DNA from: Pararhodobacter zhoushanensis
GTDB lineage: Bacteria; Pseudomonadota; Alphaproteobacteria; Rhodobacterales; Rhodobacteraceae
Assembly (NCBI RefSeq): GCF_003990445.1
Contig: NZ_REEZ01000012.1
Span: 62,001-126,000, forward strand
Reading direction: 5' to 3'
DNA: 64,000 bases
Below, in pieces: positions 30,410-53,020 of this stretch (within the stretch, counting starts at the first letter, position 1; each line of letters begins with the position of its first letter). The translations under genes were made by a program, and so were the position numbers. Under the pieces are notes generated by a model that worked only from the letters and a program-made list of their open reading frames with translations, ran no database searches and had not been told where the DNA came from.

Positions 30410-31332
30410 TCCGTCACCTCCGATCCACCGGCCTGCGCCTGCTGCCACTCGTGATAATTCAATTTCGATCCCCGAACCTTCCATTCCAGCCGCCCGTTGC
30501 TGTTCCGGTCCAGCACCACCGCCGCGGCGGCCGACGGGCTGCTGAACGGCCAGGGTTTGGCGAAGCGCATCCGGTCCTCCGCGTGAGGGACCAACGCGCC
30601 CTCGGCGATCATCTTGTCCTTAAGGCCGCCATAGCTCTGCTGGACATAACCGGTCCCGATCAGGGCCTCGGAGCCTTCTAAAACAACGAACTCACCGTCC
30701 TCTTCGACGGCAGTCGCCTGGACGCCGCTCTTGTGACGGATCTCGAAATGGACCTCTTCGACGGTCCTATCATCAGCGGGTTTCGCGACCTGCGTCACGG
30801 CGCGCGGCTGAGGTTTCAGCATGTCGAGCCCGATGACCGGCAGGATAATCCGCAGGTTCGCGAGGAACTGTTCCATGTTCGCTACATCCGCCTCAGGCAG
30901 GCGGCGTCGGCCGGTGTCGGGCTGGGTGCCGTTGTCAAGCGTCACCCGGCCCGCCTGCGTGGTAACCCGGATCAGCCGGGCCTCGAGGTATTCGGCGTGC
31001 CCCTTGGACAGGTCGTCGTCGCTGGTCGTGACGGTGATGGCGGTTTCCCAGAAGTCGCGCTTCTTCGCGCTCTGTTCGATCCTTTCGGACACTGAGTTGC
31101 CTGACCCGATATAGACCCGGGTCACGCCGGGCTTGTCCGGGTCCGGGCCGGACAGGATATAGACGCCGGTCCGGTCCACCTCGGACCGGGCGGTCAGGTC
31201 GCCGAAGGCCGAGGCGCCGCTGACAAACAACAGACCGGTCCAGCCGTGGATCGTCGCCTTGCGCAGGCCCGTGGGCTTCCCGTCGACCAGGAAAAGCTGG
31301 ATGGTCCGCCCGAAGGGTTCGCCTGTGGTCAT
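30406..31332 (-). CDS. GIY-YIG nuclease family protein with DUF4357 domain
   Basis: This 308-residue protein contains a GIY-YIG-like domain (GVYILSGPDPDKPG near residue 55 and RVYIGSGNSVSERI near 75, with Glu in the helix HAEYLEARLI near 115) and a C-terminal DUF4357 domain (FSSPSAAAAVVLDRNSNGRL, then EWKVRGSKLNYHEWQ). Proteins with this pairing are regularly found inside type I restriction loci. Whether it cuts DNA or RNA, or only supports the complex, is not known. It overlaps hsdR by four bases, so it is translated with the restriction subunit, and starts 55 bases after the Abi gene. Confidence 0.9.
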   Translation of the reverse strand: MTTGEPFGRTIQLFLVDGKPTGLRKATIHGWTGLLFVSGASAFGDLTARSEVDRTGVYILSGPDPDKPGVTRVYIGSGNSVSERIEQSAKKRDFWETAITVTTSDDDLSKGHAEYLEARLIRVTTQAGRVTLDNGTQPDTGRRRLPEADVANMEQFLANLRIILPVIGLDMLKPQPRAVTQVAKPADDRTVEEVHFEIRHKSGVQATAVEEDGEFVVLEGSEALIGTGYVQQSYGGLKDKMIAEGALVPHAEDRMRFAKPWPFSSPSAAAAVVLDRNSNGRLEWKVRGSKLNYHEWQQAQAGGSEVTE

Positions 31333-31387
31333 GCGGGTACCTCTTTCACAAGTCTTGCCAGCTTCGTTTGGGCAGAAACCGGCATCC

Positions 31388-32290
31388 TCATACCTTCCAC
31401 ACCGCTCTTGTGCGCCAATCCGCTGGAAAGCCCATGCTGGCAGGATCGGCCAACGTGCAGCCGTCGATCAGCGCAACAAGGCGCTGTTTCCATTCATTGC
31501 CCGGCGCGATCAGGGCCAAAAGATAATCAAGCGTCACCAGAGTGTTGTGCAGATAGCGCGGATCGGCATCTCGTATTGCAACGGGCAGCTTCGCAGGAAA
31601 TCTTGGTGTGGTCATTTTCACCGTGAAGCGCTTGTTCCACAGCCTGCCATGGTGGGCGCATATGTTGCGCACATGGCTGATATGATGGGCGAAAGACGTG
31701 ACCACCTTTTCGTCTAGCGCGAAGGGGGACGCGATCGCGTTTCTATCGCTTCGCAGTTTCAGGTCGCTATAGAATTTCGACAGCAACCCGAAGGACATGA
31801 CCTCTGCCGCCATCCAGACCGGCGGCAGCTTGGGCGAGGTGTATTTGTCGCGATAGTGGGTCGCGAACGTGTCGCGCGAGCGGCTGAATTCCTTGTTCAA
31901 CTCGGCAACGGCGGACGCATGACGCCCGATATGGGCATAGTGGCCCTGTTCGAGATAGCCATGGGGCCCATAGGTCATCGCCATGTGATGCGCCCATTGC
32001 GCGCGCAAGGCCACCTCGACCCGCTCGATGGCGTCCAGAACCAGCAGCCGCAGTTCGAGGTCGAAGATGTAGAGCGTCAGCACATCCTCGAAGGTTGTCC
32101 CGTCGCGGAAGGCGTGATCGCCATTGTTCGCGGCGGGCACCTCGAAGGGCAGCCAATAGGCCCGCAGCCTGTAGTAGGAGATGAAGTTCAGGTAGTGCTG
32201 TGCCTGGGCTTCATCACCGACAGTCATGCCGCGACGTTTCAGCAGTTCGACCTGATCCGGGACGGAGACGGCGGGTTTTTCGAACTTCAT
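31388..32290 (-). CDS. Abi-family abortive infection protein (Abi_2, HEPN)
   Basis: This 300-residue protein matches the Abi_2/AbiD-AbiF family of phage-exclusion proteins. The N-terminal wording [20 protein letters not shown] and [15 protein letters not shown] is typical, and the HEPN ribonuclease motif is present as [15 protein letters not shown] near residue 206 (R-N-x3-H). Abi_2 proteins are considered relatives of the HEPN domains of Cas13 and are expected to cut RNA when triggered. It lies between hsdS and the GIY-YIG gene in the same direction. A 166-base gap upstream could hold its own promoter. The partner or trigger is unknown. Confidence 0.92.
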
Positions 32291-32456
32291 GCGGCACTCC
32301 TGTGCCGCGAAAGCGATACCCTGAAAACAAGTAACCCGCCGGGGTGCGCAGTGCGAAACCGAGGTTCCGTCCGAGGCGTGGCGGGTCTTGTTGACACATT
32401 AAATAGGGCAGGAATCCTACCAAAGCAATAAGAAACCGGCCGGTCCGCGCCAAAAA

Positions 32457-33695
32457 TCATGCCGCCACCCTCACGTCGATCTTGCCGGTGACAGCGGCGG
32501 TGATCAGCGCCGCGCGTTTTTCGCGCAGGAGGTCTATGCTGCGCTCGGTCTGGGCGATCAGGCCCCGGATGCGCTCAAGCTCGACGTCGATCCGTTCAGC
32601 GATGAGCCTCTGCTCCTCAATCGGCGGCATGTAAACAGGAAGTCCCAGAAATTTTTCGGGCTCCATGCGCCACTGGTCGGTCCGGATGCCGTTTGAAATG
32701 AGGCGATAGACCCACGGCATAGGTTGCGCCCGCAGGTAGTGATGCATGTACCGGGGGTCGTGTTCTCCGATGGGACGCATGACAACATAGTCCGGACTGG
32801 TAATCCCTTTCATGGGGGCGATACCCATTGACCCCTGCCAAGCCTTCATCTTGTTGATGACAAGATCATTCGGGTTGACCAACTGGTATTTGGACAGGTC
32901 TTCGGGCGTTTTGTTAATGTTGTCATCGCGGGATGATTTCTCGATCACGCCGAACTCGCGATAAACCGAAAGGACAGTTAGGTCCTCATACCCCTGCCGT
33001 TTCTCCTGCCTGAAGTGATCCTTCATCCGGCCCCGCACCCAATGTGCCGGAACCCGTCCTCGCCAATCCACTCCACTGTCAATGGTGGGCGCGTTCCGGT
33101 CGAGACCACGGCGAACGAGGCGGGATATGGCCGCCTTCTCCTTTTCCTTCAGCAGCGCGATGAACCGGGTCTTCTTCTCGATCAGGCCGTCAATCATGCC
33201 GGTTTCGCGGTCGAGGAAGCGGGCGATGGCGACCTGATCTTCGGGACTGGAAATATTCACGTGATAGTTGCGGACCGCCTCGGCACTCACGCGCTTGAGG
33301 CCGCCTGCGCCGGTCATGCTCCGTATCCCTTCGAACCGAAAGTCTTCCGAGCTGAGGAGATAGAGCAAGAAGTCCGGGTCGATCCGGGAAGCGTCAGGTC
33401 GCAGAACGTAGACCTCAGAGGTTGCAAACCCGACGCCGTTTATCAGCCCTTCCGCTCTTCCTTTCTTCCCATTCTCGAAACAGGGTGTGACTTTCGCGAG
33501 AAGAACATCATCGTTAGCAACGAAGTTGTAGCTCCCAGCTGTCATGACGCTCAGGGGTTCAGCCCTTGAACCATCGACCCCACCCAGACCGTCCTTGATG
33601 GCGTCCATGGGGATGAAAGAAACAGGATCGTCTGCTCGGAGGCGCCGTATCTTCGCTGACGGGGAAAGGGCCACCGAGAACTTCAGGCGGCTCAT
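32457..33695 (-). CDS. hsdS: Type I restriction-modification specificity subunit HsdS
   Basis: HsdS gives sequence specificity to the methylase and nuclease. The 412-residue product has the expected two target-recognition domains separated by conserved helices: the first spacer is SPEDQVAIARFLDRETGMID followed by KTRFIALLKEKEKAAI near residue 185, and the second is PPIEEQRLIAERIDVELERI near 365 followed by SIDLLREKRAALITAAVTGK. The conserved segments flank variable regions, as usual. It overlaps hsdM by four bases (ATGA). The recognised sequence cannot be read from the protein. Confidence 0.95.
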   Translation of the reverse strand: MSRLKFSVALSPSAKIRRLRADDPVSFIPMDAIKDGLGGVDGSRAEPLSVMTAGSYNFVANDDVLLAKVTPCFENGKKGRAEGLINGVGFATSEVYVLRPDASRIDPDFLLYLLSSEDFRFEGIRSMTGAGGLKRVSAEAVRNYHVNISSPEDQVAIARFLDRETGMIDGLIEKKTRFIALLKEKEKAAISRLVRRGLDRNAPTIDSGVDWRGRVPAHWVRGRMKDHFRQEKRQGYEDLTVLSVYREFGVIEKSSRDDNINKTPEDLSKYQLVNPNDLVINKMKAWQGSMGIAPMKGITSPDYVVMRPIGEHDPRYMHHYLRAQPMPWVYRLISNGIRTDQWRMEPEKFLGLPVYMPPIEEQRLIAERIDVELERIRGLIAQTERSIDLLREKRAALITAAVTGKIDVRVAA

Positions 33696-35710
33696 TCCGT
33701 CACCTCCGCCAGCACCGCCGCGATTTCCGCCTCGACCGCCTTCAGCTCGGCGTCGATCTCCTCCAGATCGCGGGGCGGCTGGTATTCATAGAAGTAGCGA
33801 TTGAAGTTGATCTCATACCCCACGACGCCGACTTGGCCGTCGTACTCGTCGCGGAACGTCTCATCCACATAGGCGTCGGGCGCATGGGGCAGCACCTCCT
33901 GCGCCATGTAGTCCCGGATGTCGGTGCCGAGGGGGATGTTCTCGAAATCCGTCAGGTCGTCATCGGGGATGACCTCGCCCTTCTTGTCGAGGATCGGTTC
34001 GAGGTCCGGGTCCCGCACGCCGAAGGATTTCTGGAACGCTTTGACTAGGGCGGCGTTCACCTTGCCCAGACCCGCATCGCGCTTGGCCGCGTTCTTGACC
34101 CAAGCCTCGAACCAGTGCGAGCCATGCGCCTCGCCCATGTCCGCCTCGAACAGCTTGGTCCAGCCGCTCTGCACTTCGGGGGCGAGCTTACCCCATGCGG
34201 TTTCATCCGCCAGCGCCGCAAGTCCCTCAGGCGAGGTCACGATCTTCTTGCGCAGCGGGCGCAGGACCTTGACCCGGCGATAGCCGAAGTCGCGGCTGTC
34301 GAAGATCCGGCTCTCCTTCGTCTCGGCGAAGTCGGCATACATCTGGACAATCTGCCGGATCTGGTCGTTCCCGACCCGGCGGCGCTTGTTCCCCTCGCTC
34401 TTGCGCATGGGCTCGAACAGCGCGGTCGCGTCGATCAACTGGACCTTCCCCTTTCGGTGGGCGGGCTTCTTGTTGGACATAAGCCAGATGTAGGTGCCGA
34501 TCCCGGTGCGAAAGAAGATCTCGGTCGGAAGCGCGATGATGGCCTCGACCACATCCTCCTCCAGCAGGTAGCGCCGGATTTCGGATTCCCCTTGCCCCGC
34601 GTTCCCGTTGAAGAGGGGCGAGCCGGACAGGACGATCGCCGCCCGCCCGCCGCCGCGCTCCGGCGCCTCCAGCTTGCTGAGGAGGTGGAGGAGGAACAGC
34701 ATCGACCCGTCGCTGACGCGCGGCAGCTTGGGGCCGAACCGGCCCTCGAACCCCTTCTCCTGATGTTCCCGGACCACGGCGGCCTGATCCATCTCCCACT
34801 TCTTGCCGAAAGGGGGATTCGAGACGCAGTAATGGAACCGCTCGTTCGCGAGCTTGTCGTCGGACAGGGTGCTGCCGAGCTTGATGTTCTTCGACAGGTC
34901 GCGGCCGGGATCGGACTCGACGGTCTTGAGGAGCATCGAGGCGAGGCAGACGGCGTGGGTCTCCGGTTCCTGCTCCTGCCCGTAGGGCACGATGACCGGG
35001 GCGATGGAGTAGCGGTCGCGCAGGGCGTTTACATGCTCCATCCCATCCGACAGGAAGCCGCCGGTGCCGCAGGTCGGGTCATAGAGCGTCCGGATGAGCC
35101 CTGGGTTGTCGATGAACATCTGGTCGTCCGGGTCCAGCAGCAGCTCGATGGCTAGGTGGACCACGTCGCGCGGGGTCATGAAGTCCTCGGCCGCCTCGTT
35201 CACCTCTGCGCCGAAGCGGCGGATCAGGTGCTCATAGACGTTCGACATGACGCGTTCCGGAACCGCGTCCGGGTGCAGGTCGATGGCGGCGAAGTTTTGA
35301 CAGATCTTATAGAGGACCCCGGCCTTGTCCATTCGGGCCAGCGTGTTCGCGAAATCGAACTGTTCGAAGATGACCCGGGCGTTGTCGGAGAAGGAGGCGA
35401 TGTAATCCTCGAGGTTCTGGCGGGTCCGGGTCGCGCCGAGGCTGCGCAGGTCGTAGTTCGAGGTGTTGTAGAACGGGTAACCGGTCTGGGTCCGGAGGAT
35501 CACGCCCAAGTCAATCGGGCTCTCCTTCATGGTCTTAACGGTTTCGCGCACCTGGTCCCGAGTCGGTTCCAGCACGCATTCCAGGCGGCGCAACAGGGTG
35601 AAGGGCAGGATTACCTTACCGAAATCGACGTGTTTGAAGTTCCCCCAGAGGTCGTCGGCGTTCTTCCAGATGAAATCGGCGAGAGAGGTGTTCGTCGTCT
35701 GGGTGTTCAT
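33692..35710 (-). CDS. hsdM: Type I restriction-modification methyltransferase HsdM
   Basis: HsdM methylates adenine N6 within the site chosen by HsdS. The 672-residue product has the N-terminal helical domain (SLADFIWKNADDLWGNFKHV, VILPFTLLRRLECVLEPTRD), the SAM-binding motif LYDPTCGTGGFLSDGME near residue 215 and the catalytic NPPFGKKWE near 298. A C-terminal extension with GEVIPDDDLTDFENIPLGTD and a helical tail (LEEIDAELKAVEAEIAAVLA) contacts HsdS. It is the second gene of the leftward operon, following the small probable regulator with no gap. Confidence 0.96.
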   Translation of the reverse strand: MNTQTTNTSLADFIWKNADDLWGNFKHVDFGKVILPFTLLRRLECVLEPTRDQVRETVKTMKESPIDLGVILRTQTGYPFYNTSNYDLRSLGATRTRQNLEDYIASFSDNARVIFEQFDFANTLARMDKAGVLYKICQNFAAIDLHPDAVPERVMSNVYEHLIRRFGAEVNEAAEDFMTPRDVVHLAIELLLDPDDQMFIDNPGLIRTLYDPTCGTGGFLSDGMEHVNALRDRYSIAPVIVPYGQEQEPETHAVCLASMLLKTVESDPGRDLSKNIKLGSTLSDDKLANERFHYCVSNPPFGKKWEMDQAAVVREHQEKGFEGRFGPKLPRVSDGSMLFLLHLLSKLEAPERGGGRAAIVLSGSPLFNGNAGQGESEIRRYLLEEDVVEAIIALPTEIFFRTGIGTYIWLMSNKKPAHRKGKVQLIDATALFEPMRKSEGNKRRRVGNDQIRQIVQMYADFAETKESRIFDSRDFGYRRVKVLRPLRKKIVTSPEGLAALADETAWGKLAPEVQSGWTKLFEADMGEAHGSHWFEAWVKNAAKRDAGLGKVNAALVKAFQKSFGVRDPDLEPILDKKGEVIPDDDLTDFENIPLGTDIRDYMAQEVLPHAPDAYVDETFRDEYDGQVGVVGYEINFNRYFYEYQPPRDLEEIDAELKAVEAEIAAVLAEVTE

Positions 35711-36003: not shown

Positions 36004-37188
36004 TTAAGGGGCCTTCAGATCCGGTGCCTTGTTCAGCTCGATCTGTGTTCTTTCGGGTTTCGCCGTCAGCTGCGATGTCGTTGTTTCTGAGAGTATTAGC
36101 CAGTACCTCGTATGGCGTCGCTCACCGGTTCGGCTGAGCGCACCTTTCTCGACTAGATCCTGCAGATCGCGGGTTGCGGTTGCGCGTGAAGTTCCGGTGA
36201 TCTTGAGATAGTTGTCGGCGCTGAGGCCGCCTTTGAAACCGCAAGGGCCTTCCCGAAACATTCGAGCGATGGCCTTGGCCTGGCGTTCGTTCAACTGGTC
36301 TCTGTGACGATCGTAGAAGTGTGCCTTGCTGATGAAGAAGCCGACGCGGTCGAGTGTTGTCTGTTGGGCCTTCAAGACAACTGCTGCGAACCAGACGAGC
36401 CAATCGGTCACGTCGAGCGTTTTTTGATGGTGCTGGAGCTGGTCGTAGTAAGCCTTGCGCTCCTTCTCGATGGTGAAGGCAAGCGAGATGAGGGTCGGCT
36501 GGCCAATGTTCTGCGCCAGAGACTTTTCAGCGAGGGCGCGACCCAAGCGGCCGTTGCCGTCTTCGAATGGGTGGATACTCTCGAAATAGAGGTGGCTTAG
36601 CCCTGCGCGCGTCAGTGCTGGAAGCGGCTCTGCTCCCCCCGGACCGGTCTTGTTGAACCAATCCGCGTATCGCTCCATCTCAGGCATGACCCGCTCCGAG
36701 GGCGGCGCTTCGAAATGGATCGTGGGCCGGTCAAGGCGGCCGGAAACGATTTGCATCGCCTCGGCGTGTTGTCGGTAGGCCCCAATGGTTTCCAACCGAC
36801 GGTCATGGGACAGGAGCATCCGATGCCAGCGGTACAGTGTCTCATGGGTTAGCAGCTCTGCAAAACTGGAATAGACGTCGACCATCATTTCCGCGACGCC
36901 CTGTTCGCGCGGTTTGGCAGGGTAGCTGTCCGGATCGAGGCCCAGATGGCGGCGCAGCGAAGATTGCACACTGAGCCGATCGAGGATTTCACCCTCGATG
37001 GCGCTCGTCTGCATCGCTTCCTCGCTGAGCAGTTCGATGCGGAGTTGCTCGCGTTCCGGCTGGCTGACATGATGGACCGCGCCGAGGATTTCTCCGGACG
37101 ACAGCAGGAACGTCTGCTCAAACGGCTCCAGAGCGGAGGCGTCATACCGGAAATCCGGCCAATCAGGCAGCGTCCAGTTCCAAGCCAT
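36004..37188 (-). CDS. Fic-family protein with inhibitory helix and C-terminal DNA-binding domain
   Basis: This 394-residue protein has the Fic active site HPFEDGNGRLGR near residue 205, which transfers AMP or a similar group to target proteins. An N-terminal inhibitory motif TSAIEGE (S/TxxxEG type) lies near residue 62, so it is a class II, self-inhibited Fic. The first ~100 residues match DUF4172 and the C-terminal part (GLSADNYLKITGTSRATATR, LVEKGALSRTGERRHTRYWL) is a winged helix. It may regulate its own gene through the palindrome over its ribosome binding site. It lies upstream of, and in the same direction as, the type I restriction operon. Confidence 0.93.
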   Translation of the reverse strand: MAWNWTLPDWPDFRYDASALEPFEQTFLLSSGEILGAVHHVSQPEREQLRIELLSEEAMQTSAIEGEILDRLSVQSSLRRHLGLDPDSYPAKPREQGVAEMMVDVYSSFAELLTHETLYRWHRMLLSHDRRLETIGAYRQHAEAMQIVSGRLDRPTIHFEAPPSERVMPEMERYADWFNKTGPGGAEPLPALTRAGLSHLYFESIHPFEDGNGRLGRALAEKSLAQNIGQPTLISLAFTIEKERKAYYDQLQHHQKTLDVTDWLVWFAAVVLKAQQTTLDRVGFFISKAHFYDRHRDQLNERQAKAIARMFREGPCGFKGGLSADNYLKITGTSRATATRDLQDLVEKGALSRTGERRHTRYWLILSETTTSQLTAKPERTQIELNKAPDLKAP

Positions 37189-42547: not shown

Positions 42548-44522
42548 AGGCAAGATTGCCCTAGGAGTTTTGAGCCTCGTGCTGGTCGGTCTCGCCATGG
42601 GCTATGTCGTGGCGACCGGCTTTGTCATGTTCCGCTATGGGCTTTCTCCCTCGCGTTTCGACGTCACCCTGCTTGCCCGCGAATATCGGGGTCTGTCTCA
42701 GTCTGCACCGAAAGACTTCCTCTGGGTGAACCTCATCCTGGGCGGCTTCGGCCTGGCATCGCTGATGCTGAGCGTCACGCTTCTGGGGGATGCATTGACC
42801 CGCTTCGGGACGACGCATTGGCAGACTCGCAGCGAGATGAAGAGGAACGGTTTCTTTGCCAAGCCGGGCGGCGGCTTCCTTCTGGGCAAGCTCGGCTCCC
42901 CGAAATCCAAGCGCCCGTTCCTTGTCTCAAAAACCTTCCCCCACGCGCTGATCGTGGCGCCTACAGGCCGGGGCAAGGGCGTGGGGTTCGTGATCCCGAA
43001 CCTTCTGACCTTCAAGGGCTCGGCCGTGGTGCTCGACGTGAAAGGCGAGAACTTCCGCGAGACCTCGCGCTTCCGCGCCAGCATGGGGGACAAGGTTTTC
43101 CGCTTCGCGCCGACTGACTGGGACCGACCGACACATCGCTATAATCCGCTGGCGCGCATTGCTGCCATGACCAACCCCGACCGGCAGCAGATGGAGTTGA
43201 AACTCACCGCGAAGCTCTTCCTGCAGACCGACAATGAAAAGCTGAGCGGGCTTCTGGCCGGGGGCATCGACTTGTTCGTGGCGGCCGGTCTTCTGGCCTT
43301 CGAGCGCGGCGTGCCGACCATCGGCGAGATCTATCGCATCACAGCCTCGGGGGGCGACAAGCAGAAGGAATACCTGAAGCGTTCGCAGGAGGTGAAGAAC
43401 AAGTCGGCCAAACTGATCTTCGAGCGTATGGCATCGACCAACAACGACACCCTCACTTCCTACCTCTCCCTCCTGATGACATCGGGTCTCGACACTTGGG
43501 ACAACCGCGCGATCGACGCGGCCACCGCGACCTCTGACTTCTCATTCCGGGATATCCGCCGCCGCCCACATACGATCTATCTTGTGGTCGAATCCGAGAT
43601 GATCCGACCGCTTGCCCCGCTGATCCGTCTCTTTTTCTCGGACCTGATCGCTTCGCTGCAAGCACAGGAACCTGGCGATGACGAACCTTGGCCGGTCATG
43701 ATCATGCTCGACGAGTTCGACCGGCTCGGAAAGATGCCGATCGTCGCCGAGAGCATCAAGACGCTGCGCTCGTTCGGCGGCAACCTCGCGATCGTGACCC
43801 AGACCATCCCCGCGCTCGATGAGATCTATGGCGAAAACACCCGCCGGTCGCTGCAGGGCGGCGCCGGGGTAAAGCTCTACCTCACCCCGTCCGAGCAGAA
43901 GACCATCGAGGAATTGAGCCAGGCTGTCGGCAAGACCACCAAGCGTGTGGTGACCCGCTCCCGTGCTGTTGGACGCAATCCATTCGAAGGGCGTAGCGTC
44001 TCGGAGAGGACAGAAGATACCCCGCTCCTGACCGAGGATGAGGCCCGGCGCATGGACCTAGACGAGGTCATCCTCGTGATCGACGCGCAGATGCCGATCC
44101 GGGCAAGAAGGGTGAAGTATTTCGAGGATCCGGCGTTGAAGGTTCTGCACGCCTGTCAATCGGGAAGCTTCCCATATCCGGACGAGGACGGCCTGCGGCG
44201 GGACCGACAGATGTCCGAGACTCGCGAGACGGTCGAGAAGCTGAAGCAAGAGCTGCAGGAAGTGCGGGCGGCTGCAGGCGCAAATGGTTCTGGGGTAGCG
44301 ACCTCACCGGCAACGGCGGAGATGCCCGCATCGAATACGCAGAGTTCCACGCCTTCGCGGCCAAATCGTGCGCGGGGTCGAGCAGCTCGCGCGGGAGCTA
44401 GTGGAGGTGGGCCAGTGCAGTTGTCATTTGATCCGGTGGGGCTGGGGCTCAAGGAGCCGGATAGAGCAGAACTGGCAGCTGCGGTTCAGACGACACGGGC
44501 CATCATTGCAGAATATGCGTGA
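42540..44522 (+). CDS. virD4: Type IV secretion coupling protein VirD4
   Basis: This 660-residue inner-membrane ATPase links the relaxosome to the secretion channel. Two N-terminal membrane helices (LGVLSLVLVGLAMGYVVATG and LILGGFGLASLMLSVTLLGD) precede the motor domain, with Walker A LIVAPTGRGKGVGFVIPNLL near residue 138 and Walker B VMIMLDEFDRLGKMPIVAES near 387, followed by SFGGNLAIVTQTIPALDEIY. The C-terminal 100 residues are low-complexity (Ala/Thr/Ser/Gly). It is the third gene of the rightward virD operon. The stop at 44522 is followed by a 360-base spacer. Confidence 0.96.
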   Translation: MDKGKIALGVLSLVLVGLAMGYVVATGFVMFRYGLSPSRFDVTLLAREYRGLSQSAPKDFLWVNLILGGFGLASLMLSVTLLGDALTRFGTTHWQTRSEMKRNGFFAKPGGGFLLGKLGSPKSKRPFLVSKTFPHALIVAPTGRGKGVGFVIPNLLTFKGSAVVLDVKGENFRETSRFRASMGDKVFRFAPTDWDRPTHRYNPLARIAAMTNPDRQQMELKLTAKLFLQTDNEKLSGLLAGGIDLFVAAGLLAFERGVPTIGEIYRITASGGDKQKEYLKRSQEVKNKSAKLIFERMASTNNDTLTSYLSLLMTSGLDTWDNRAIDAATATSDFSFRDIRRRPHTIYLVVESEMIRPLAPLIRLFFSDLIASLQAQEPGDDEPWPVMIMLDEFDRLGKMPIVAESIKTLRSFGGNLAIVTQTIPALDEIYGENTRRSLQGGAGVKLYLTPSEQKTIEELSQAVGKTTKRVVTRSRAVGRNPFEGRSVSERTEDTPLLTEDEARRMDLDEVILVIDAQMPIRARRVKYFEDPALKVLHACQSGSFPYPDEDGLRRDRQMSETRETVEKLKQELQEVRAAAGANGSGVATSPATAEMPASNTQSSTPSRPNRARGRAARAGASGGGPVQLSFDPVGLGLKEPDRAELAAAVQTTRAIIAEYA

Positions 44523-44733
44523 TGCGAGGACATTGTTCTTGCGGTTCAGGGGATCGGACGGAACACGCATTCGACAGTGTTGTTATCGCTTACGACATGG
44601 CCATCGGTGTGAAAGCGACCGAAGCCGCCACCGTATTTTGTGAGGAAGGCAAGCGACCCGCCAAGGTACAATCTAAGCGAATGCTGACGTACATTGCTTG
44701 ATTTGGTCGCGCCGACTTGAGCATTCATCTCGG

Positions 44734-44748
44734 CAAAAATGGCACTTA
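44734..44748. repeat. Operator-like repeat, copy 1
   Basis: CAAAAATGGCACTTA matches ACAAAATGGCACCTA at 44841-44855 in 12 of 15 positions. The copies are 107 bases apart and lie upstream of and inside the presumed promoter of the Xre-like gene. Confidence 0.5.
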
Positions 44749-44830
44749 TTTTGTCACATCAAAACAAACTTAGTCGAAAATGAGGGCATTCACAGCCAGC
44801 TTTCCCCGATCTGTGACAGAAAATGCCAAA

Positions 44831-44859
44831 TTTACATAGGACAAAATGGCACCTACCTT
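44831..44859 (+). promoter_or_regulatory. Candidate promoter with operator-like repeat copy 2
   Basis: TTTACA (44831-44836) and TACCTT (44854-44859) are 17 bases apart. The repeat ACAAAATGGCACCTA (44841-44855) fills the spacer, as for a site where a repressor blocks polymerase. The start codon follows 27 bases later. Confidence 0.5.
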
Positions 44860-44886
44860 GATGTCATGGACACAAGGGAGGCATCG

Positions 44887-46050
44887 ATGGCGTTCAAGGC
44901 AGAACTTCTCAAGAAGAAGTTGAAAGCAGAGGGGAAATCGCGCGACGAACTCGCCGCAGCGATCAAGAAGCATAAGCGCACAGTAAGTCGCTGGCTGGCG
45001 GGAACCAATCCGCCCAAGCCCAAGGATCTGGAGGCGATTGCCCGCGTTCTGAACTGCAAGCCTCAGGATTTCGATCCGTTCTTTGCCGACGTGGACTTGG
45101 GAGAAGTGTCCATCCAGGCCCATGTTTCTGCTGCGTCCCACAATGCCTACGAACTCATGCGGTGGCGTTATGGGGTCAGCCAGAAGCAGATCATGGAACT
45201 GGCACCAGTTCTCTTTTCCATTGTGGCCGGACATGCACTGAGAGTGCCGGTGCAGGACGACGAAGTAGCTCGCCTTGCCTTTGAAAACGGCCTCTCCGAT
45301 CCGCGTCTACAAGGGGGGCACCTTGAGGATCAGGCCAGCAAGCTCAAAAAATGTTTCGGAATCGAGACGTCACACCCTGGCACAGAAACGTCGCGGAATC
45401 TGTTCAGCGAGGCAATCATTCGGCTGTCGGCGCAGATTTCAGACCATGTCGATACAAAGTGGTTCGTGGGGGCAGCGGCCGAAGAGGCCCCGAATGCGGC
45501 CGGATTTATATCGGACATTGAGCTCGTAGAGGCTCTCTCTGGGGGGCAACCGCAACTGGCTGAGGCCATCGCGAAAGGACGCATTCGGCTGTCCTCGGTT
45601 TTGCATCAGGCCAAGGAAGCCAAGGGCGGTGGCCTCTCGATTGAAGAGTTTGCTAAGGCCATTCGGGAAGCGCATGAGCAGGACATGGAGGATCAGCGGA
45701 AGGTAGGTCTCAAGAAGCTGAAGGCCTGGCGCGCGTTCTATGCCGAACGCCATCCGGAACTGGCCGCGGAGTATGATGACCTCGTGGCGAAGCATTGCCA
45801 TGAAGAAGGTTGGTACCCTGAGCGGTACACGGATGATGACCGTGTTCAAAGCTGGGTGAACCCGTTCCAGGAAGATCTGCATCTCAACGAAGATACGCTT
45901 TCTGAGTATCAGAGCCGCAAAGCTGCGGCTTCTGAAGGCGGCAAAATTGCCTTGGTTTTCCCGTTCGAAGATCCGATCTATCGCCGCTTTGAAGAACTCC
46001 AGCGTCACCGCTCCAAGCTTAAAAAACAGTTCGAGGGGGAGTCGGCATGA
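44887..46050 (+). CDS. Xre-family helix-turn-helix protein with long C-terminal domain
   Basis: This 387-residue protein opens with an Xre DNA-binding domain (RDELAAAIKKHKRTVSRWLA, GTNPPKPKDLEAIARVLNCK). The remaining 300 residues are not a family I can name; they include ASHNAYELMRWRYGVSQKQI, the acidic SDIELVEALSGGQPQLAEAI and a C-terminal helix EELQRHRSKLKKQFEGE. No ImmA-type metal motif (HExxH) is seen. It has GGGAGG before ATG 44887. Its stop overlaps the start of a DUF4258 gene (ATGA), so the two act as a unit; a toxin-antitoxin or defence regulator role is inferred. Confidence 0.75.
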   Translation: MAFKAELLKKKLKAEGKSRDELAAAIKKHKRTVSRWLAGTNPPKPKDLEAIARVLNCKPQDFDPFFADVDLGEVSIQAHVSAASHNAYELMRWRYGVSQKQIMELAPVLFSIVAGHALRVPVQDDEVARLAFENGLSDPRLQGGHLEDQASKLKKCFGIETSHPGTETSRNLFSEAIIRLSAQISDHVDTKWFVGAAAEEAPNAAGFISDIELVEALSGGQPQLAEAIAKGRIRLSSVLHQAKEAKGGGLSIEEFAKAIREAHEQDMEDQRKVGLKKLKAWRAFYAERHPELAAEYDDLVAKHCHEEGWYPERYTDDDRVQSWVNPFQEDLHLNEDTLSEYQSRKAAASEGGKIALVFPFEDPIYRRFEELQRHRSKLKKQFEGESA

Positions 46051-46382
46051 TGGCTGTGTGTGCAGACGCGTCTTTCGTCCTCAGCAACCATGCGGCAACG
46101 CGTATGGCCCAACGGAGTATTCGGCAAGACAGTCTCGAACTTGTCCTTCTGCATGGGACACGGGTCAAGGCGCGGCATGATTGCGAGGAGTACATCTTGT
46201 CAGGACGGACCGTCCGGCACCTCACAGCCGCGGGCCTCGATGGGGAGATGATTGCAGCTGCGACCAAGGTGAGGGCGATTGTCGACGCCGCAGGTAATGT
46301 CGTGACCTGTTATCACCAGCGCAAAGGCCGATCACGACCGTTCCGCAGCAATTCCTGCCTTCGGAACACCAGGTACATCTGA
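46047..46382 (+). CDS. DUF4258 family protein, possible toxin
   Basis: This 111-residue basic protein matches DUF4258: FVLSNHAATRMAQRSIRQDS near residue 10, LVLLHGTRVKARHDCEEYIL, and VRAIVDAAGNVVTCYHQRKG. The conserved His-Ala-x3-Met-x-x-Arg helix and the C-terminal strand are typical. The family is small, basic and RelE-like in layout and is often proposed as a toxin; activity is not established. It is translationally coupled to the Xre-like protein before it. About 100 bases separate it from the next gene. Confidence 0.75.
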   Translation: MMAVCADASFVLSNHAATRMAQRSIRQDSLELVLLHGTRVKARHDCEEYILSGRTVRHLTAAGLDGEMIAAATKVRAIVDAAGNVVTCYHQRKGRSRPFRSNSCLRNTRYI

Positions 46383-46481
46383 TTTTTCAAGGGACCGCAG
46401 AATGCGCTTCGTGTGGGTGGTACGCCCACGAACGATACCGCTGCGCGCTTATCTCAAGACCATGCAAGCGAAGGATGCAAC

Positions 46482-46979
46482 ATGTCCGCTATTATCTATC
46501 AATCCACAAAATTCTACCATGCGCGCGAACAGTATTTTGCCGTAGCAGGAGAGCACACGTTGCTCCGCTTGACCATTGGCAGCATCGGTGGCCACCAAGG
46601 CGGGGCCATCAAGACGGCCACCGCTAGCGATTTTGGCGCCCCGCCGATCTACCGGGACCGCGAAGCGTTGATCAACGCCCTGCAGGTCGGGATCCAGAAC
46701 CTTGCCGGGGGCGAGGTGGACCTTTGCATCGACAGCGATGGCAAAGGCCGCAGGTTCGCCGAGATCTGCCTGTCCGGCACGAGGGATCAGTTGTTCGAAG
46801 CCCTTACTCTACTGGCCGATGAAATGGCCCGATATCTGGGGCAGCCGACAGAGGTCGACCACACCGCCGGCTGCAGCGATCTTCGCGATCTATATGACGA
46901 CCTGTGCATTGCCGAGGGCGCGCCGATTTATTTGTCGGATGGCATGTATTTGGGATCTGACGGGCGGCTGCTCCAATGA
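46482..46979 (+). CDS. Hypothetical protein
   Basis: This 165-residue acidic protein begins SAIIYQSTKFYHAREQYFAV and contains TLLRLTIGSIGGHQGGAIKT, NALQVGIQNLAGGEVDLCID and a C-terminal GAPIYLSDGMYLGSDGR. I do not recognise a family. No signal peptide or membrane segment is visible. ATG 46482 is preferred over the frame opening at 46413 because AAGGATG lies just before it. It lies between the Xre/DUF4258 pair and the helicase module, read in the same direction, and may belong to either. Confidence 0.6.
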   Translation: MSAIIYQSTKFYHAREQYFAVAGEHTLLRLTIGSIGGHQGGAIKTATASDFGAPPIYRDREALINALQVGIQNLAGGEVDLCIDSDGKGRRFAEICLSGTRDQLFEALTLLADEMARYLGQPTEVDHTAGCSDLRDLYDDLCIAEGAPIYLSDGMYLGSDGRLLQ

Positions 46980-47219
46980 TGCAGGTAACGCAGTTCACAT
47001 CCCAGCAGCCCGCATGCCGCGCGGCAAGTCCCGCTCTTCGACGATCGAGAGGTTGCCCTCACAGCGAGGCTTGTCTAGCCTCCAATTCAGTTGGTGGAAT
47101 GTCATGCTTACCCCCTATTTCGGCCCGATTTCAAAGGCATACGATTCCAGGGTGATCTAGCGCAGAAGCCTGGAGACTATTTCCGCAAGAGATGCCGTTT
47201 GCCAGTAAAGGGGGACACC

Positions 47220-49943
47220 ATGGATATGACTGGAAATCCAGAGCGCTTTGGCGTGTTGCTGCCTCTCTGGCCGGACCTGCATACCCTGGCAACCGAAGCA
47301 GAGCAGAATGCCGACAAGCTCCCTGATTTTTCGACCATCCGCCTACGCAGCTTTTCGGAGGCATTGGTTTGCCACCTTTTTCGCCACCATGGTTTGCAAT
47401 TGAACGATGAAGAGAAGCAGTTCGACCGCCTGCAACTGCTTCAGCATAATGATCTTCTGGATCGGCGGATTCTGGGGCTTTTGCACACTATCCGGAAACT
47501 CGGAAACATCGCCGCACACGGAAAGCGTCCTGTATCGGTGGCTGAAGCCCGCGATCTGCTCGATGACGCCCTCTCGCTGACCGCTTGGTTCTGCCTTGAA
47601 ATGCGCCCGGATATCGACTGGCAAGCGCGGGGACGTGCCGCGTCCATAACGCCGTCAGCATGTCATGAGACCTCGCAGGACATGTGCCCAGCCGACGCGA
47701 GGGAGAACATTGTCCAAAACCGCGACGCTGGCCTAGAGACCCTGGTCAGGCCACCGAAGACGCGGATCTCGTTGCGGGACATGTTCGAAGAGGAGCTCAC
47801 GGCCGACCAGCAGAGGGGCATTTCGGCGCTCGATGGATTCCTCGCAGACGACACCCAGCGGGTGTTTCTGCTGAAAGGCTATGCGGGAACGGGGAAAACC
47901 TTCCTTGCGGGTGGTCTGACCGAGTTCTTGCTTGCCCAAGGGAGGATGTTCTCGCTTGCGGCCCCGACAGGGCGGGCAGCCAAAGTCATCACAAAGAAAA
48001 CTGGGCAGTCAGCGCGAACGATCCACAGCCTGATCTACGACTATAGCGAGATGACCGAGCAGACCGAAGATTACGGCGATGGGTCGGCCACCTTCAAGAT
48101 GATTGCCAAGGTCCGGAACAATGATGACCCGGTCGATGCCGTTGCCATCATCGACGAGGCGTCGCTCGTATCGAACGTGTATTCCGAAAGTGAATTCTTC
48201 CGGTCTGGCAGCGGACATCTGTTGCGGGATCTGATCGAGCACGTGGGTTCAACGCATTCAGGCAACGCCCGAAAGATCATCTTCATCGGCGATCCTGCGC
48301 AGCTGCCGCCGGTCGGCATGTCGACCTCTCCTGCCCTGGACGCGGATTACCTGCGTGAGACTTTCGGGCTTGATGCAACCAGCTACGAGTTGACTGAAAT
48401 CGTCCGCCAGAAAGCTGAAAGCGCGGTAATCCGCAATGTCATGCCCCTGCGCGAAGGCGTCACCAGTGGACGCTTCAGCAGCCTGACTTTCTCTTTTGAC
48501 GATGACGTCATCCAACTGCCCAAGGACAGTGTCACCCCTCTCTATATGAAGATCCGCGAAGGGCGCGGCCCCCAGGCGCCGATCATCGTTACCCACTCGA
48601 ATACCGAAGCCGCCAGTTTCAACCGCGCGATCCGGGCAGTACTGTTTCCGGGCAAGGCGACAGTGGCGGCCGGTGACAGCGTGATCGTTGCGGCCAATGG
48701 CTTTTGCGGTCCTCATTACGTCGCCAATGGTGAAATCCTGCAGATCGACGCGGCTGAAGCGACGGTCGAGCGACGGTCTGTGCAGTTGCTTCAGAAGATC
48801 GGCAATAGCGACGTATCGGAACCCATTAATGTCGCGCTGAATTTTCGAGACGTCATGGTTGCGCTGCCGCAATCGGAAGGTGACGATCTCATCCTGAAGG
48901 CAAAGATACTCGACGATTTTCTGCACGGCGACGATGCTAGCTTGGCATCTGCGCAGCAGCGCGCCTTCTACGTCGATTTCCTCAAGCGCCACAAGCATAT
49001 CGACCGGAACAAAGATCGTGATGCATTCCAGTTGGCCCTGCGTTCGGATCCGTATTTCAACGCTCTTCGCCTCAGGTTTGGCTATGCCATTACCTGCCAC
49101 AAAGCGCAGGGCGGCGAGTGGAGCCATGTGATCGTCAGTTGCGCAACCCGGCAGAACCCGCGGTCATCGGACTATTTTCGCTGGCTCTACACGGCCCTGA
49201 CCCGGACCAGCAGCAAGCTGTATCTTGTCGATCCGCCGGAGATCAGGCTGAAAGCGGCGGGAACCGGATGGGTTACGCCGTCTACCACAGAACCCGGCCC
49301 ACAAAGCTCGGAGACCGGCCCTCCCGACCAGCGAACGATGGCCCATGAACCAGATGGAGGGGCCCCGGCCCCGGCTTTGTCGCCGCAATCCCTGTTCCGC
49401 ACCTGGCTTCAAACGGAAATCCGCAACAGGCTGGCCGACACTGGGGTCGAGATCGAGGACGTCGCTCACCACCAGTATCGAGAGGCGTATTTCTTCAAGC
49501 GAGGTGCTGACGCTGTTCGGATCGACATTGGCTACAAGGGAAACTGGAGTGTCTCTAGCGTGACCTGCCCGAGGCCTGATGGCTTCGCGGAGGAAATCAT
49601 AGCTCGCATCGCTGGATTGTCGGGCCAGAAACCAGGAACCAGCAGTTCGAGCTCGGCCAGCGTGGGCGCGCCTGACCGCCCGTTCCTGCGGGATTTCCAT
49701 GACCGGTTGATTGCTGCGCTGTCGAAGAAGGGTATCACGGTCGCCAACTTCAAGGAGCAGCAATGGAGCCAGCGCTACGTTCTTGCGCGCGGCCCGGATT
49801 CGGTGACAGTCGACATCTTCTACAATGGCAGGAACCAGCTGACACGGTTCATGCCAATCAATCCAGCTCCTAACCCGACAGCATCACTCGTTGACCTGCA
49901 GGATGACGTGAGAACAGTTATCACTGTTGAGGTTCACCCATGA
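47220..49943 (+). CDS. DUF4145-like/RecD-like helicase with duplicated C-terminal domain
   Basis: This 907-residue protein has three parts. Residues 1-140 resemble DUF4145 (LRSFSEALVCHLFRHHGLQL, then LDRRILGLLHTIRKLGNIAA, with R-x4-A-HG as a HEPN-like RxxxxH variant). Residues 190-690 form an SF1B RecD/Pif1-like helicase: LLKGYAGTGKTFLAGGL (Walker A near 222), AIIDEASLVSN (motif II near 312), FIGDPAQLPPVG, LTEIVRQ, and the late motif ITCHKAQGGEWSHVIV near 626. The C-terminal 190 residues contain two copies of an unknown domain. It overlaps the TPR gene by four bases. ATG 47220 is chosen; a role in phage defence or DNA transfer is inferred. Confidence 0.85.
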   Translation: MDMTGNPERFGVLLPLWPDLHTLATEAEQNADKLPDFSTIRLRSFSEALVCHLFRHHGLQLNDEEKQFDRLQLLQHNDLLDRRILGLLHTIRKLGNIAAHGKRPVSVAEARDLLDDALSLTAWFCLEMRPDIDWQARGRAASITPSACHETSQDMCPADARENIVQNRDAGLETLVRPPKTRISLRDMFEEELTADQQRGISALDGFLADDTQRVFLLKGYAGTGKTFLAGGLTEFLLAQGRMFSLAAPTGRAAKVITKKTGQSARTIHSLIYDYSEMTEQTEDYGDGSATFKMIAKVRNNDDPVDAVAIIDEASLVSNVYSESEFFRSGSGHLLRDLIEHVGSTHSGNARKIIFIGDPAQLPPVGMSTSPALDADYLRETFGLDATSYELTEIVRQKAESAVIRNVMPLREGVTSGRFSSLTFSFDDDVIQLPKDSVTPLYMKIREGRGPQAPIIVTHSNTEAASFNRAIRAVLFPGKATVAAGDSVIVAANGFCGPHYVANGEILQIDAAEATVERRSVQLLQKIGNSDVSEPINVALNFRDVMVALPQSEGDDLILKAKILDDFLHGDDASLASAQQRAFYVDFLKRHKHIDRNKDRDAFQLALRSDPYFNALRLRFGYAITCHKAQGGEWSHVIVSCATRQNPRSSDYFRWLYTALTRTSSKLYLVDPPEIRLKAAGTGWVTPSTTEPGPQSSETGPPDQRTMAHEPDGGAPAPALSPQSLFRTWLQTEIRNRLADTGVEIEDVAHHQYREAYFFKRGADAVRIDIGYKGNWSVSSVTCPRPDGFAEEIIARIAGLSGQKPGTSSSSSASVGAPDRPFLRDFHDRLIAALSKKGITVANFKEQQWSQRYVLARGPDSVTVDIFYNGRNQLTRFMPINPAPNPTASLVDLQDDVRTVITVEVHP

Positions 49944-51955
49944 GGTTCACCATTGCAACTCGGAGGGTAAATCGCTCAGGTGCCGCTTGGAACCATCGCT
50001 CCAAAGAGGTCACCGAACTTAGGAAAGGTGGCCAGCTTGCTGCTGCACATGCTCTCTCACTGGAGCGCATCGCTGATTCCGAGGCCGATGACTACGACCG
50101 CGCCGCCTATGCATGGTGTTTGATTGCGCTCGTGAAACAACATTCAGCCGATGGTAATCACAAGGCGCTGTCCGACTATCTGGACCAGTTGCGGTGCTTC
50201 GAAGTCCCGGCCTCAGACGCAATGCTGGCGGAGCATCGCGCGAAGGCTCTGGACCTCGCGGACCCCGACCGCCGTGCCATGCAGTCAGCTCGCATTCTGA
50301 GCAAGCAGGGAAAGCACGAGGAGGCCGCAAGGATCTACGCCGACCTTGATGCGAACGGAAAGCTGGCACCAGAGGATCGGAAGGCGTGGGGGTGGGAACT
50401 CTACCGCCTAATCAAAGTCGAACTCGAACAGACGCAGGACGAGAAACTGTCTCCGCCAGTTGTTCAGCGCGTGAAGAGGAACCTGAACACCTATCTGAAG
50501 CTAGCGATTGGCGGCCCCGACCTTCTGCACAGCCTCATGCTGCAGCAAGCGTTGCGCCTGACAAAGGGCGAACAGCTCAAGCTTCTTCCTTTTCTTCGCC
50601 TCTGGAACCCGGATCAGTTCAACGACGAGGACTTCGACCGGCAGACGGGAAAGGACGGAAAGACCTACCCGTCCCTCGTCGAGCAGGTGATCCAGGCCGC
50701 GTCGGCCGAGGCAGCCCAGAGCGATTGCGTGGATGACTGCCAATTCATTTTGCCGCATGTGCAGGCCGCGATGAAACGCTTCCCGGATAACATCTGGCTC
50801 AAGTTCAATCTCACGAAACTACTGCGGGGTATTGGGCGTATTGATGAAGCGCTCAAGCTGGCCGTCGAATTTGCGCGCGAGAAGGCTTCTGAGTATTGGG
50901 CTTGGGAACTGATCGGTGACCTGGTGCCAAACGATATCGATCTGCGGCGCTCGTGCTATGCCAAGGCCCTGAGCTGTTCACAGGACGATAACTTCGTAGG
51001 GAAGGTCCGCCTCAAGTTCGCCGCTCTGTTGGAAGAAAGCCACCCTGCCGAAGCCCGCTTCGAGGCAGAGCGAATGATTGCACACCGCGCCCGCGCCGGA
51101 TACGCGATACCCCGCGAAGCACAGAGTCTTGTTGAAAGACTTTCTGCGGTGACGCCAAACACGACTGATCGCGCCTTCTATGGCAGCCTGAGCGATGCGG
51201 CGGAAGCTTTGCTTTTCTCACACCTCCCGTGGACCGATGCGTGCCTCGGGGACGTTTTCACGATCGAGGGGCGAGATGGTCAGAAGCCTCGAAGGCGCCG
51301 CAGAATCTATGTGAAGGGGAATCCGTTCGCACTCGAGCTGAACCTGCCCGACAGCCATCCGGACATCCGCAGGTTGGCCGAAGGAACGCCGATCAAGTTG
51401 CAATTTGAGACATCAAAGGCCGAGCCAAAGCGCACAATAATTCACCGGATCAGCCGCCGGGAAGACGGCACACCCATGGACATCATGCCCTTTCGAGTTG
51501 GTGTCATCGACCACATCAACCATGGAAAATCTCTGCTTCACGTCATCGTGGCACGCGGCGTGGATGGAACTTGCCCAATCTCACTTTGCCCGGGGCAGGT
51601 GGAGATTGGAACCACCGTCGCAGTTCGTCTTTCCCAGCACCATTCGAAGAACGGCCTTCGCACGCGTATTCTCGAAATTGAACCCACCGAACAATCACCT
51701 TCTCCTGATGTCTGTCGCCCATTCCGCGAGACAACGAACGTGACGCCGAGCGGGCTGGGGTTCACACTTGGAGATATCTTCATTCCTCCTCACATGATCA
51801 CTGCTGAAGGGGTACAGGCGGGCGATCTTGTGGAAGGCGTGGCTGTTGCAAGTTTCGATAAGAAGCGTGGGAAATGGGGAATGAAGGCGATCCAGGCGAA
51901 AGTTGTCGCACGAAATCACTTCGACTTTGGAGGTGAAAACGATGACTGGGAATAG
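49940..51955 (+). CDS. TPR-repeat protein with C-terminal OB-like domains
   Basis: This 671-residue protein is mostly helical TPR-like repeats over residues 25-400 (SARILSKQGKHEEAARIYAD, IGRIDEALKLAVEFAREKAS, LRRSCYAKALSCSQDDNFVG). The final 230 residues are beta-rich: LGDVFTIEGRDGQKPRRRRR, PFRVGVIDHINHGKSLLHVI, and TLGDIFIPPHMITAEGVQAG, then GDLVEGVAVASFDKKRGKWG, which look like two or three OB/cold-shock-like folds. I recognise it as a type annotated DUF7017, function unknown. The 4-base overlap with the helicase gene implies the two proteins work as a pair, TPR part for protein contacts and OB part for nucleic acid. Confidence 0.75.
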   Translation: MRFTIATRRVNRSGAAWNHRSKEVTELRKGGQLAAAHALSLERIADSEADDYDRAAYAWCLIALVKQHSADGNHKALSDYLDQLRCFEVPASDAMLAEHRAKALDLADPDRRAMQSARILSKQGKHEEAARIYADLDANGKLAPEDRKAWGWELYRLIKVELEQTQDEKLSPPVVQRVKRNLNTYLKLAIGGPDLLHSLMLQQALRLTKGEQLKLLPFLRLWNPDQFNDEDFDRQTGKDGKTYPSLVEQVIQAASAEAAQSDCVDDCQFILPHVQAAMKRFPDNIWLKFNLTKLLRGIGRIDEALKLAVEFAREKASEYWAWELIGDLVPNDIDLRRSCYAKALSCSQDDNFVGKVRLKFAALLEESHPAEARFEAERMIAHRARAGYAIPREAQSLVERLSAVTPNTTDRAFYGSLSDAAEALLFSHLPWTDACLGDVFTIEGRDGQKPRRRRRIYVKGNPFALELNLPDSHPDIRRLAEGTPIKLQFETSKAEPKRTIIHRISRREDGTPMDIMPFRVGVIDHINHGKSLLHVIVARGVDGTCPISLCPGQVEIGTTVAVRLSQHHSKNGLRTRILEIEPTEQSPSPDVCRPFRETTNVTPSGLGFTLGDIFIPPHMITAEGVQAGDLVEGVAVASFDKKRGKWGMKAIQAKVVARNHFDFGGENDDWE

Positions 51956-51994
51956 CCGTCGCAAAGCACAGAACTAGAGCAATTCTCTCTATGC

Positions 51995-53020
51995 TTATCT
52001 TCCCAATCGCTTCGCCCTCTCGGCCATCCTGGCCACCTGCGCGCTCGCCGTCGCCGCGGCGCTCTTTACCGCAGCAGGAGCGTGTACAGTTCCACGTCCA
52101 ATCGCCTCACCCGTCGTGAGCGCCCCTATCCGCGCCCTGCCCTGGACACCAGATGTGTTAGCCAGCCCTCGCAGTACCCCTGCGGACCCGCTGACGATCG
52201 CCGGTGCCGCCGCCACCATTAGGTTTCCTGAGATGCCGCGAACGATCAGGGGTGTTGCTGCTACAAATCCTTTGGCCAGGAAAACCATGACGAAGAACGG
52301 CACGAGCGATCCGATGTTGGTTGCCGAATTCGGATCACCGAGCTGCGCGAGAAGCGAATTCGCCATGCCGACGACGGTAGAGAACATTGCTGCGATTACG
52401 ATGGGGTAGAAGGCATAGCTGACTGTCGTCGAGACCCATCTGTGGAAGAAATCCTTGGTCGCGTCGAAGAGCGACAGTGCGATCATGATCGGAGCGAGGC
52501 CAAGCATGAGTGTCAGCATCATCTTGGCGAAGATGAGTACGATGCCGGTCATGAAGCCGAGAAGGCTGAGGAGCACCAGGCCAATGCCGCCGAGGATCGC
52601 TCCGGTCATCCAGTTGAGGTTGTTGCCGATAGCGCTAAGGTATTGGCTGAACTCTGTAATCAGTCGGTCGAATTCGGCTGCGAAATAGGTAGCGCCCGCC
52701 CCTCCGCCCCCGACCGAGGAAATCAGGGCTCCAGCGACATAGTCGAGCCCACCAATGACTGCATTTGCGACCGCGTTGAAGTTGGCCCAGTTGAAGGCGA
52801 AGAGCCCTATCAGCATCAGCTTGATCAGGTACCAGAAGAAACTTGCCCCATCCATGCTGCGGAACTGGAATGCCATGTTGATGCAGACGCCGATCAGCGA
52901 AAGCGTGGCCATCAGCAGGATGATCGTGCCGGTATTGCTCGCCACGGCCCCGAACTGGGACTCGGCCGCATCGGCGAGGAAGCCGTCGGCGGTTCCAACC
53001 ATCCAGCTGACGATGCTCAT
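51995..53020 (-). CDS. virB6: Type IV secretion protein VirB6
   Basis: This 341-residue polytopic inner-membrane protein forms part of the channel. At least six hydrophobic helices are visible, among them TIILLMATLSLIGVCINMAF near residue 30, MTGAILGGIGLVLLSLLGFM near 130, IVLIFAKMMLTLMLGLAPIM and LVPFFVMVFLAKGFVAATPL near 245, with a Gly-rich periplasmic loop. The C-terminal tail is Ala/Arg-rich and cytoplasmic. ATG 53020 overlaps the stop of the preceding gene. It is the last gene of the leftward virB operon and converges on the TPR gene with 39 bases between. Confidence 0.92.
   Translation of the reverse strand: MSIVSWMVGTADGFLADAAESQFGAVASNTGTIILLMATLSLIGVCINMAFQFRSMDGASFFWYLIKLMLIGLFAFNWANFNAVANAVIGGLDYVAGALISSVGGGGAGATYFAAEFDRLITEFSQYLSAIGNNLNWMTGAILGGIGLVLLSLLGFMTGIVLIFAKMMLTLMLGLAPIMIALSLFDATKDFFHRWVSTTVSYAFYPIVIAAMFSTVVGMANSLLAQLGDPNSATNIGSLVPFFVMVFLAKGFVAATPLIVRGISGNLMVAAAPAIVSGSAGVLRGLANTSGVQGRARIGALTTGEAIGRGTVHAPAAVKSAAATASAQVARMAERAKRLGR

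Follow-up and report, generated by a model that had tools for sequence, protein, structure and literature searches.

A probable helicase-type TOTE gene pair carried as cargo in the transfer region of a Pararhodobacter zhoushanensis conjugative plasmid

The stretch of Pararhodobacter zhoushanensis DNA studied here (64,000 nucleotides, contig NZ_REEZ01000012.1, positions 62,001 to 126,000; hereafter the window) contains two overlapping genes in the midst of a conjugative transfer region. Gene A (47220..49943, plus strand) codes for 907 amino acids with a DUF4145 (HEPN-like) domain, an SF1B helicase and two TBP-TOTE repeats, and gene B (49940..51955, plus strand) codes for 671 amino acids with a predicted TPR solenoid and three OB-like barrels at the C-terminus. 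A preliminary description, made from the letters of the DNA alone, took the two for a candidate undescribed defence or transfer system. Which system do they represent, and do they belong to the conjugation machinery around them? We consider it likely that they belong, as a member of the helicase type, to the TOTE family (PDC-M16 in PADLOC), a group of predicted anti-phage systems, and that they are mobile cargo on a conjugative plasmid.

The assignment is given by PADLOC and Pfam alike. The PADLOC model PDC-M16A (PDLC04472) matches A with 1164 bits (E reported as 0), and PDC-M16B (PDLC04488) matches B with 859 bits (5.5e-259), where PDC denotes a phage defence candidate (PMC11514479). The layout of PDC-M16, homologues of M16A and M16B side by side, is present with a four-base overlap. 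B is matched over nearly its full length (profile positions 3-631 of 634) and A, in the best of two stretches, over residues 168-906, so that the best-scoring model leaves about the first 170 residues of A uncovered in this stretch. TOTE stands for TPR, OB, TBP and Effector (PMC12458937, citing Aravind, Iyer et al. 2022). TPR, OB (S1/CSD) and TBP components are all present in the pair; for OB and TBP, the matching Pfam models bear the TOTE name. The effector part, a predicted enzyme with helicase motifs and DUF4145, is fused to the TBP part in A. TOTE systems often come with an RNase H domain (PMC12458937), whereas none is found among the Pfam matches of A and B, and the effector in A is an SF1B helicase with DUF4145. 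TALON systems likewise combine a TPR-cold-shock fusion with TBP proteins, but their helicase is of the YprA type and is accompanied by a NERD nuclease (PMC12458937), neither of which is among these Pfam matches. A new, undescribed system is ruled out by the TOTE-named Pfam domains in both proteins and by the PDC-M16A and PDC-M16B matches; the composition that had been thought to lack a name thus has one.

The pair is a real, intact and conserved two-gene unit. Both open reading frames (ORFs) were confirmed with the sizes and the overlap given earlier; the ORF of A starts with ATG at 47220, and an alternative TTG at 47091 would yield 950 amino acids. A chance arrangement is refuted because the adjacent pair recurs in several phyla and is under purifying selection. 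The ratio of non-synonymous to synonymous substitution rates (dN/dS) is 0.16-0.23 for A (six close relatives compared), 0.18-0.44 for B (the four comparisons including B) and 0.04-0.25 for the DUF4145 part of A (six comparisons). Rfam and tRNA scans of the whole window gave no matches.

Linkage and spread of the pair were followed in a scan of 84,980 species with A1, which gave at least 592 pattern matches and at least 340 relatives, the best 80 of which were kept. As downstream ORF we took the longest one of at least 100 amino acids whose start falls in the range from 120 bases ahead of the end of A to 400 bases past it. In 64 of the 80 loci this ORF, the one directly after A, matches the B profile; 58 were found in the first search round and the last six rest on iteration of the profile on the same set of loci. 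Among 72,556 plasmid records, 125 match A and 19 match B, with at least 80% cover in 13 records each, which are the same 13 accessions, and A and B are adjacent in all six records opened for this check. The form of A in Escherichia and Klebsiella is followed by a diverged TPR protein of 20% identity (one record opened). At least 80% of this diverged pair, with A about 35% identical, occurs in 42 of 5426 complete E. coli genomes (under 1%). Places of any coverage in E. coli amount to 53, 29 of them chromosomal and 24 on plasmids; the one chromosomal place opened is near clpA, with a tyrosine recombinase gene about 8 kb away. In the order to which the window belongs, TBP-TOTE was found in 3 of 293 sampled genomes, its own genome counted. 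This patchy distribution indicates horizontally moved cargo. A variant form is seen at loci L057-L062, L064 and L066, with a short A (710-761 amino acids), apparently without DUF4145, and a long B (848-888 amino acids), in which part of the TPR region matches the B profile twice.

The position on the plasmid answers the second part of the question. The slot that contains the pair extends from 44280 to 51995, between the coupling protein gene and virB6. Left of the pair lie mobC, the relaxase gene, the coupling protein gene, a helix-turn-helix (HTH) gene and two small ORFs; to the right, on the opposite strand, come virB6, virB11 and other genes of type IV secretion. We opened 14 plasmid records that share this transfer region with 80-96% identity over the matched pieces. 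The TOTE pair stands at the same place in two of them (Frigidibacter and Leisingera) and is absent from the other 12, so it is not conserved with the transfer operon. According to annotation and PADLOC, four of these 12 carry defence genes in the slot, namely CBASS (Thioclava), qatC and qatD (Pukyongiella), AbiL-type genes (Martelella), and a short Argonaute with a restriction endonuclease-type partner (Haematobacter). The others hold a nickel transporter (two Celeribacter), ABC transport and metabolism genes (Roseovarius), Tn3 with a cation transporter (Actibacterium), a cation transporter (Mameliella), insertion sequence (IS) elements with an aldehyde dehydrogenase (Pseudosulfitobacter), IS elements with integrases (Roseicitreum), and TrkH with a stress protein (Sagittula, with the left border missing). 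The table of plasmid genes describes itself as incomplete, and the slots may hold unlisted genes. The same slot is seen in L013, L014, L016 and L017. Its varied contents, with defence genes in 4 of 12 plasmids, make it a general cargo site, and it hints at how conjugative plasmids carry interchangeable immunity. A conjugation gene is ruled out for A and B by the other genes that fill the slot in the 12 sister plasmids, in good agreement with the earlier view of the pair as cargo.

The borders of this cargo were deduced from four contigs in which the pair occurs in another context. Common to them are the two genes and about 170 bp upstream (47050..51954, plus strand, by blastn), with extents of 47050-51931 in L101, 47050-51954 in L102 and L021, and 47268-51920 in L103; in the 8-10 kb left of the unit in these contigs, blastn gave nothing else above threshold. 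The mobile unit, judged from these alignments, probably consists of the two genes preceded by some 170 bp. Evidence for the right border is thin, since the contigs continue for only 30-863 bases beyond the unit (863, 30, 468 and 247 in L021, L101, L102 and L103, respectively). As homology begins at 47050 (L021, L101 and L102) or 47268 (L103), the upstream HTH gene (44698-46050), a DUF4258 ORF (46047-46382) and an ORF of 164 amino acids (46485-46979) are unsupported as parts of the module. The left flank of L101 encodes a DEAD/ResIII helicase, an AAA_24 protein and an S24-type repressor, and that of L103 a phage portal protein, so that phage-type genes are found in two of the four contigs; the scanned left-flank ORFs of L102 and L021 gave no Pfam match. 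L101 and L103 come from a viral collection (90% and 74% DNA identity over the unit, respectively) and are probably prophage-borne copies.

Within A, the helicase core comprises about residues 193-675 (47796..49244, plus strand; Pfam, alignment and Foldseek), with AAA_30 at 208-416 and UvrD_C_2 at 621-670. The motif residues are invariant or nearly so in an alignment of 45 A proteins (window A and 44 of the 80 genome loci), and A is a predicted RecD/Dda-type SF1B helicase with intact motifs, as had been recognised before. Its structure model (45 sequences, mean predicted local distance difference test score, pLDDT, 82.9) shows an N-terminal helical bundle in the DUF4145 region, then the helicase, then two repeats. 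The top Foldseek matches are DSH9, T4 Dda and RecD2, and the core thus resembles Dda and RecD2 by fold and sequence; to our knowledge, neither of the two has TBP repeats, DUF4145 or a TPR-OB partner.

The C-terminal domain, formerly described as duplicated and of no known kind, consists of two TBP-TOTE repeats, at about residues 720-803 (49377..49628, plus strand) and 816-900 (49665..49919, plus strand), both defined by Pfam and profile comparison. PF22721 matches two stretches with 116.9 bits in total (cut-off 27), the repeats resemble each other (hhalign 99.3%, 3.8e-20), and each is modelled as helix-four-strand-helix (722-800 and 821-904). Of 32 genomes of relatives, 31 contain at least two TBP-TOTE matches at E ≤ 0.001, with a few of the matches below the cut-off. 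The Pfam name, TATA-binding-like, and the order of helix, strands and helix, twice, bring the N-domain of RNase H3 and the TATA-binding protein (TBP) to mind. A kinship with RNase HIII by profile is unsupported, and a visible Y-x-G-K likeness is not significant.

The N-terminus of A carries DUF4145 at residues 27-115 (47298..47564, plus strand), confirmed by Pfam PF13643 with 27.3 bits against a cut-off of 23.1, and Pfam places this domain in the HEPN clan. It is present in 29 of the 45 aligned A proteins, in all of which R43, E47, R92, N96 and H100 are invariant. R92 and H100 (47493..47519, plus strand) were identified in the alignment and stand at the end of a modelled helix (82-100). The motif of the HEPN superfamily is R-x4-6-H, DUF4145 domains are mostly (80%) motif-conserved, and a fusion of DUF4145 to 'UvrD Helicase (endoV alpha subunit)' has been on record since 2013 (PMC3710099).

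B begins with a TPR solenoid at about residues 19-425 (49994..51214, plus strand; Pfam, model and fold search), which includes DUF7017 at 285-421 (Pfam, 124.7 bits). In its model (32 sequences, mean pLDDT 89.9), helices occupy residues 19-425 and strands follow, which we read as three beta barrels at 432-506, about 519-582 and 592-657; the TPR-OB composition proposed earlier is reproduced in this way. Pfam assigns S1CSD-TOTE-1 (PF22708, 70.5 bits, cut-off 27) to residues 513-577 (51476..51670, plus strand) and S1CSD-TOTE-2 (PF22707, 61.3 bits, cut-off 27) to residues 594-652 (51719..51895, plus strand). Barrel 1 at 432-506 (51233..51457, plus strand) is confidently modelled and has no Pfam family; its profile likeness to barrel 2 is weak (hhalign probability 14-20%), and short B proteins of about 470 amino acids skip the profile part matching it. 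TPR superhelices are the best Foldseek matches of B. Unr CSD456, presumably a set of cold-shock domains, appears at rank 48, and we take it to be the one listed match that points to the barrels. Helicase and TPR matches dominated the whole-model searches of A and B (Foldseek/VIA), which hardly probed the TBP repeats, DUF4145 and the barrels as folds.

What the pair does was approached through the company it keeps in other genomes. Two proteins per side were sampled at 33 loci (132 proteins), that is 33 of 52 with enough flank, out of 80; eight of the 19 loci left out had no B match. The 25 Pfam families listed of 109 include phage integrase (6), ResIII (5), N6_Mtase, McrBC, HSDR_N and Methylase_S (2 each) and BrxL (1), and the 25 PADLOC entries listed of 255 include type I methylase (3), DrmD (2) and Drt2 (2). 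The sole transfer-type family among the 25 Pfam families listed is T2SSE (2 members), and co-location mainly with conjugation genes is therefore not seen. In Aliivibrio the gene order is hsdM-hsdS-A-B-AAA_5 (McrB-type)-McrC, and in Shewanella A and B are followed by hsdR. A strong N6-methylase match within 30 kb of TBP-TOTE was found in 5 of 52 cases versus 0.87 expected (32 genomes), with P = 0.035, 0.003, 0.002 and 0.0038 at 10, 20, 30 and 50 kb, values that are descriptive because the test was picked after type I restriction genes had been seen in the flanks. Defence is probably the function of the pair. This rests on the company, as our literature search brought up no experimental work on such a TOTE or PDC-M16 pair, with subscription papers mostly outside the search and absence unproven.

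Several further observations weigh against the reading as a defence system of the TOTE type. The flanking-gene counts are raw and come without a matched control, and the slot cargo is not recognised as defence in 8 of the 12 sister plasmids. A lacks a B relative beside it in 16 of the 80 loci (six with an unmatched downstream ORF and ten without an ORF in reach). At least five of the 16 (L074, L082, L086, L092 and L093), from the group of ten, have 4.7 kb or more beyond A. When the TBP-TOTE repeats were compared by profile with RNase HIII N-domains, no significant similarity emerged, in a weak test that took four of the five N-domains found. A PDB sequence search with each repeat gave nothing below E 0.6. 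PDC-M63AB and PDC-S04, which are likewise candidates in PADLOC, were assayed without defence activity (PMC12409345); a further one, PDC-M66, is named beside a retron (PMC12548924). Finally, R92 and H100 are spaced R-x7-H, beyond the range of the HEPN superfamily, and DUF4145 is missing from 16 of the 45 aligned A proteins. RNA cleavage can therefore not be the core activity, and the core can act without DUF4145.

The last two observations lead to an explanation that we hold to be a genuine possibility. The pair would defend by a DNA-acting motor that recognises invader DNA and unwinds or blocks it, and DUF4145 would serve for docking or oligomerisation and not as a nuclease. The 16 A proteins without the domain keep the helicase and mostly the partner too, the motif spacing is non-canonical, and the closest folds of A are the helicases DSH9, Dda and RecD2. 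Against it stand the five residues invariant in 29 of 29 carriers, more than we would expect of a docking bundle. An improbable explanation is that the pair helps mobile elements, plasmids and prophages, in replication, repair or establishment and has no part in defence. It is carried by plasmids and by two contigs of the viral collection, L103 with its phage portal gene and L101 with its S24-type repressor gene, and A matches the phage Dda-like helicase family phrog_325 (4.4e-58). A helper of this kind is at odds with the 29 of 53 E. coli places that are chromosomal, with the restriction genes that the pair also adjoins, and with the 12 of 14 opened plasmids that have the same transfer backbone without the pair. 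An accessory of the surrounding conjugation system, suggested by the location between the coupling protein gene and virB6, is very improbable in view of the other genes in the slot of the 12 sister plasmids and of T2SSE as the one transfer-type family listed among the flanks. Overall, the preliminary description is partly supported: the anatomy was well described, the guess at defence is likely by context and inferred from company, and the claim of an undescribed system fails.

For the preferred reading, a TOTE defence pair, the domain composition points to surveillance of nucleic acids. Barrels of the cold-shock type generally bind RNA or single-stranded DNA, TBP binds duplex DNA, and SF1B helicases like Dda and RecD2 move along single-stranded DNA. 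The barrels of B would accordingly hold RNA or single-stranded DNA, its TPR solenoid would hold A, and the TBP repeats of A may grip a duplex or RNA/DNA hybrid adjoining the strand bound by B. The TBP-related N-domain of RNase H3 bound RNA/DNA hybrid, and neither double-stranded DNA nor double-stranded RNA (PMC4132731). ATP-driven SF1B movement of A would then act on intermediates of the invading genome, such as R-loops and primed forks, which offer all three ligand types together. Where present, the HEPN-like N-terminus might subsequently cut RNA, and infection would be blocked or aborted. This mechanism, with B binding nucleic acid, A engaging an invader intermediate and the HEPN-like part cutting RNA, is inferred at each step from domain to function and is, as a whole, tentative and rather doubtful. 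Unlikely, in our estimate, is the joint reading that the two TBP repeats and the TPR-cold-shock partner guide a HEPN-armed TOTE helicase to the R-loop or primer intermediates that invading genomes form, where it responds by cleaving RNA, and that the slot in the transfer region of this Rhodobacterales-centred conjugative plasmid lineage is a fixed exchange site for unrelated defence systems. We know of no bacterial immune system that senses R-loops or primers in this manner. TOTE systems have been named and modelled, and our literature search turned up none that had been tested by experiment. The present case makes such a test feasible, given a compact pair, a left border set by natural transfers, and a diverged relative in E. 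coli.

Other genes of the window are of interest in their own right. Type I restriction genes on the minus strand (27176-35710) encode HsdR (27176-30484), a specificity subunit (32457-33695) and a methylase (33692-35710), and stand beyond a Fic-family gene (36004-37188); in Leisingera, a BREX-3 gene stands beyond the Fic gene. The HTH-domain gene (ORF of 450 amino acids) and the DUF4258 ORF (111 amino acids) overlap by four bases and look like a separate small module (44698-46382); in PADLOC the HTH gene has weak RmrA matches at most.

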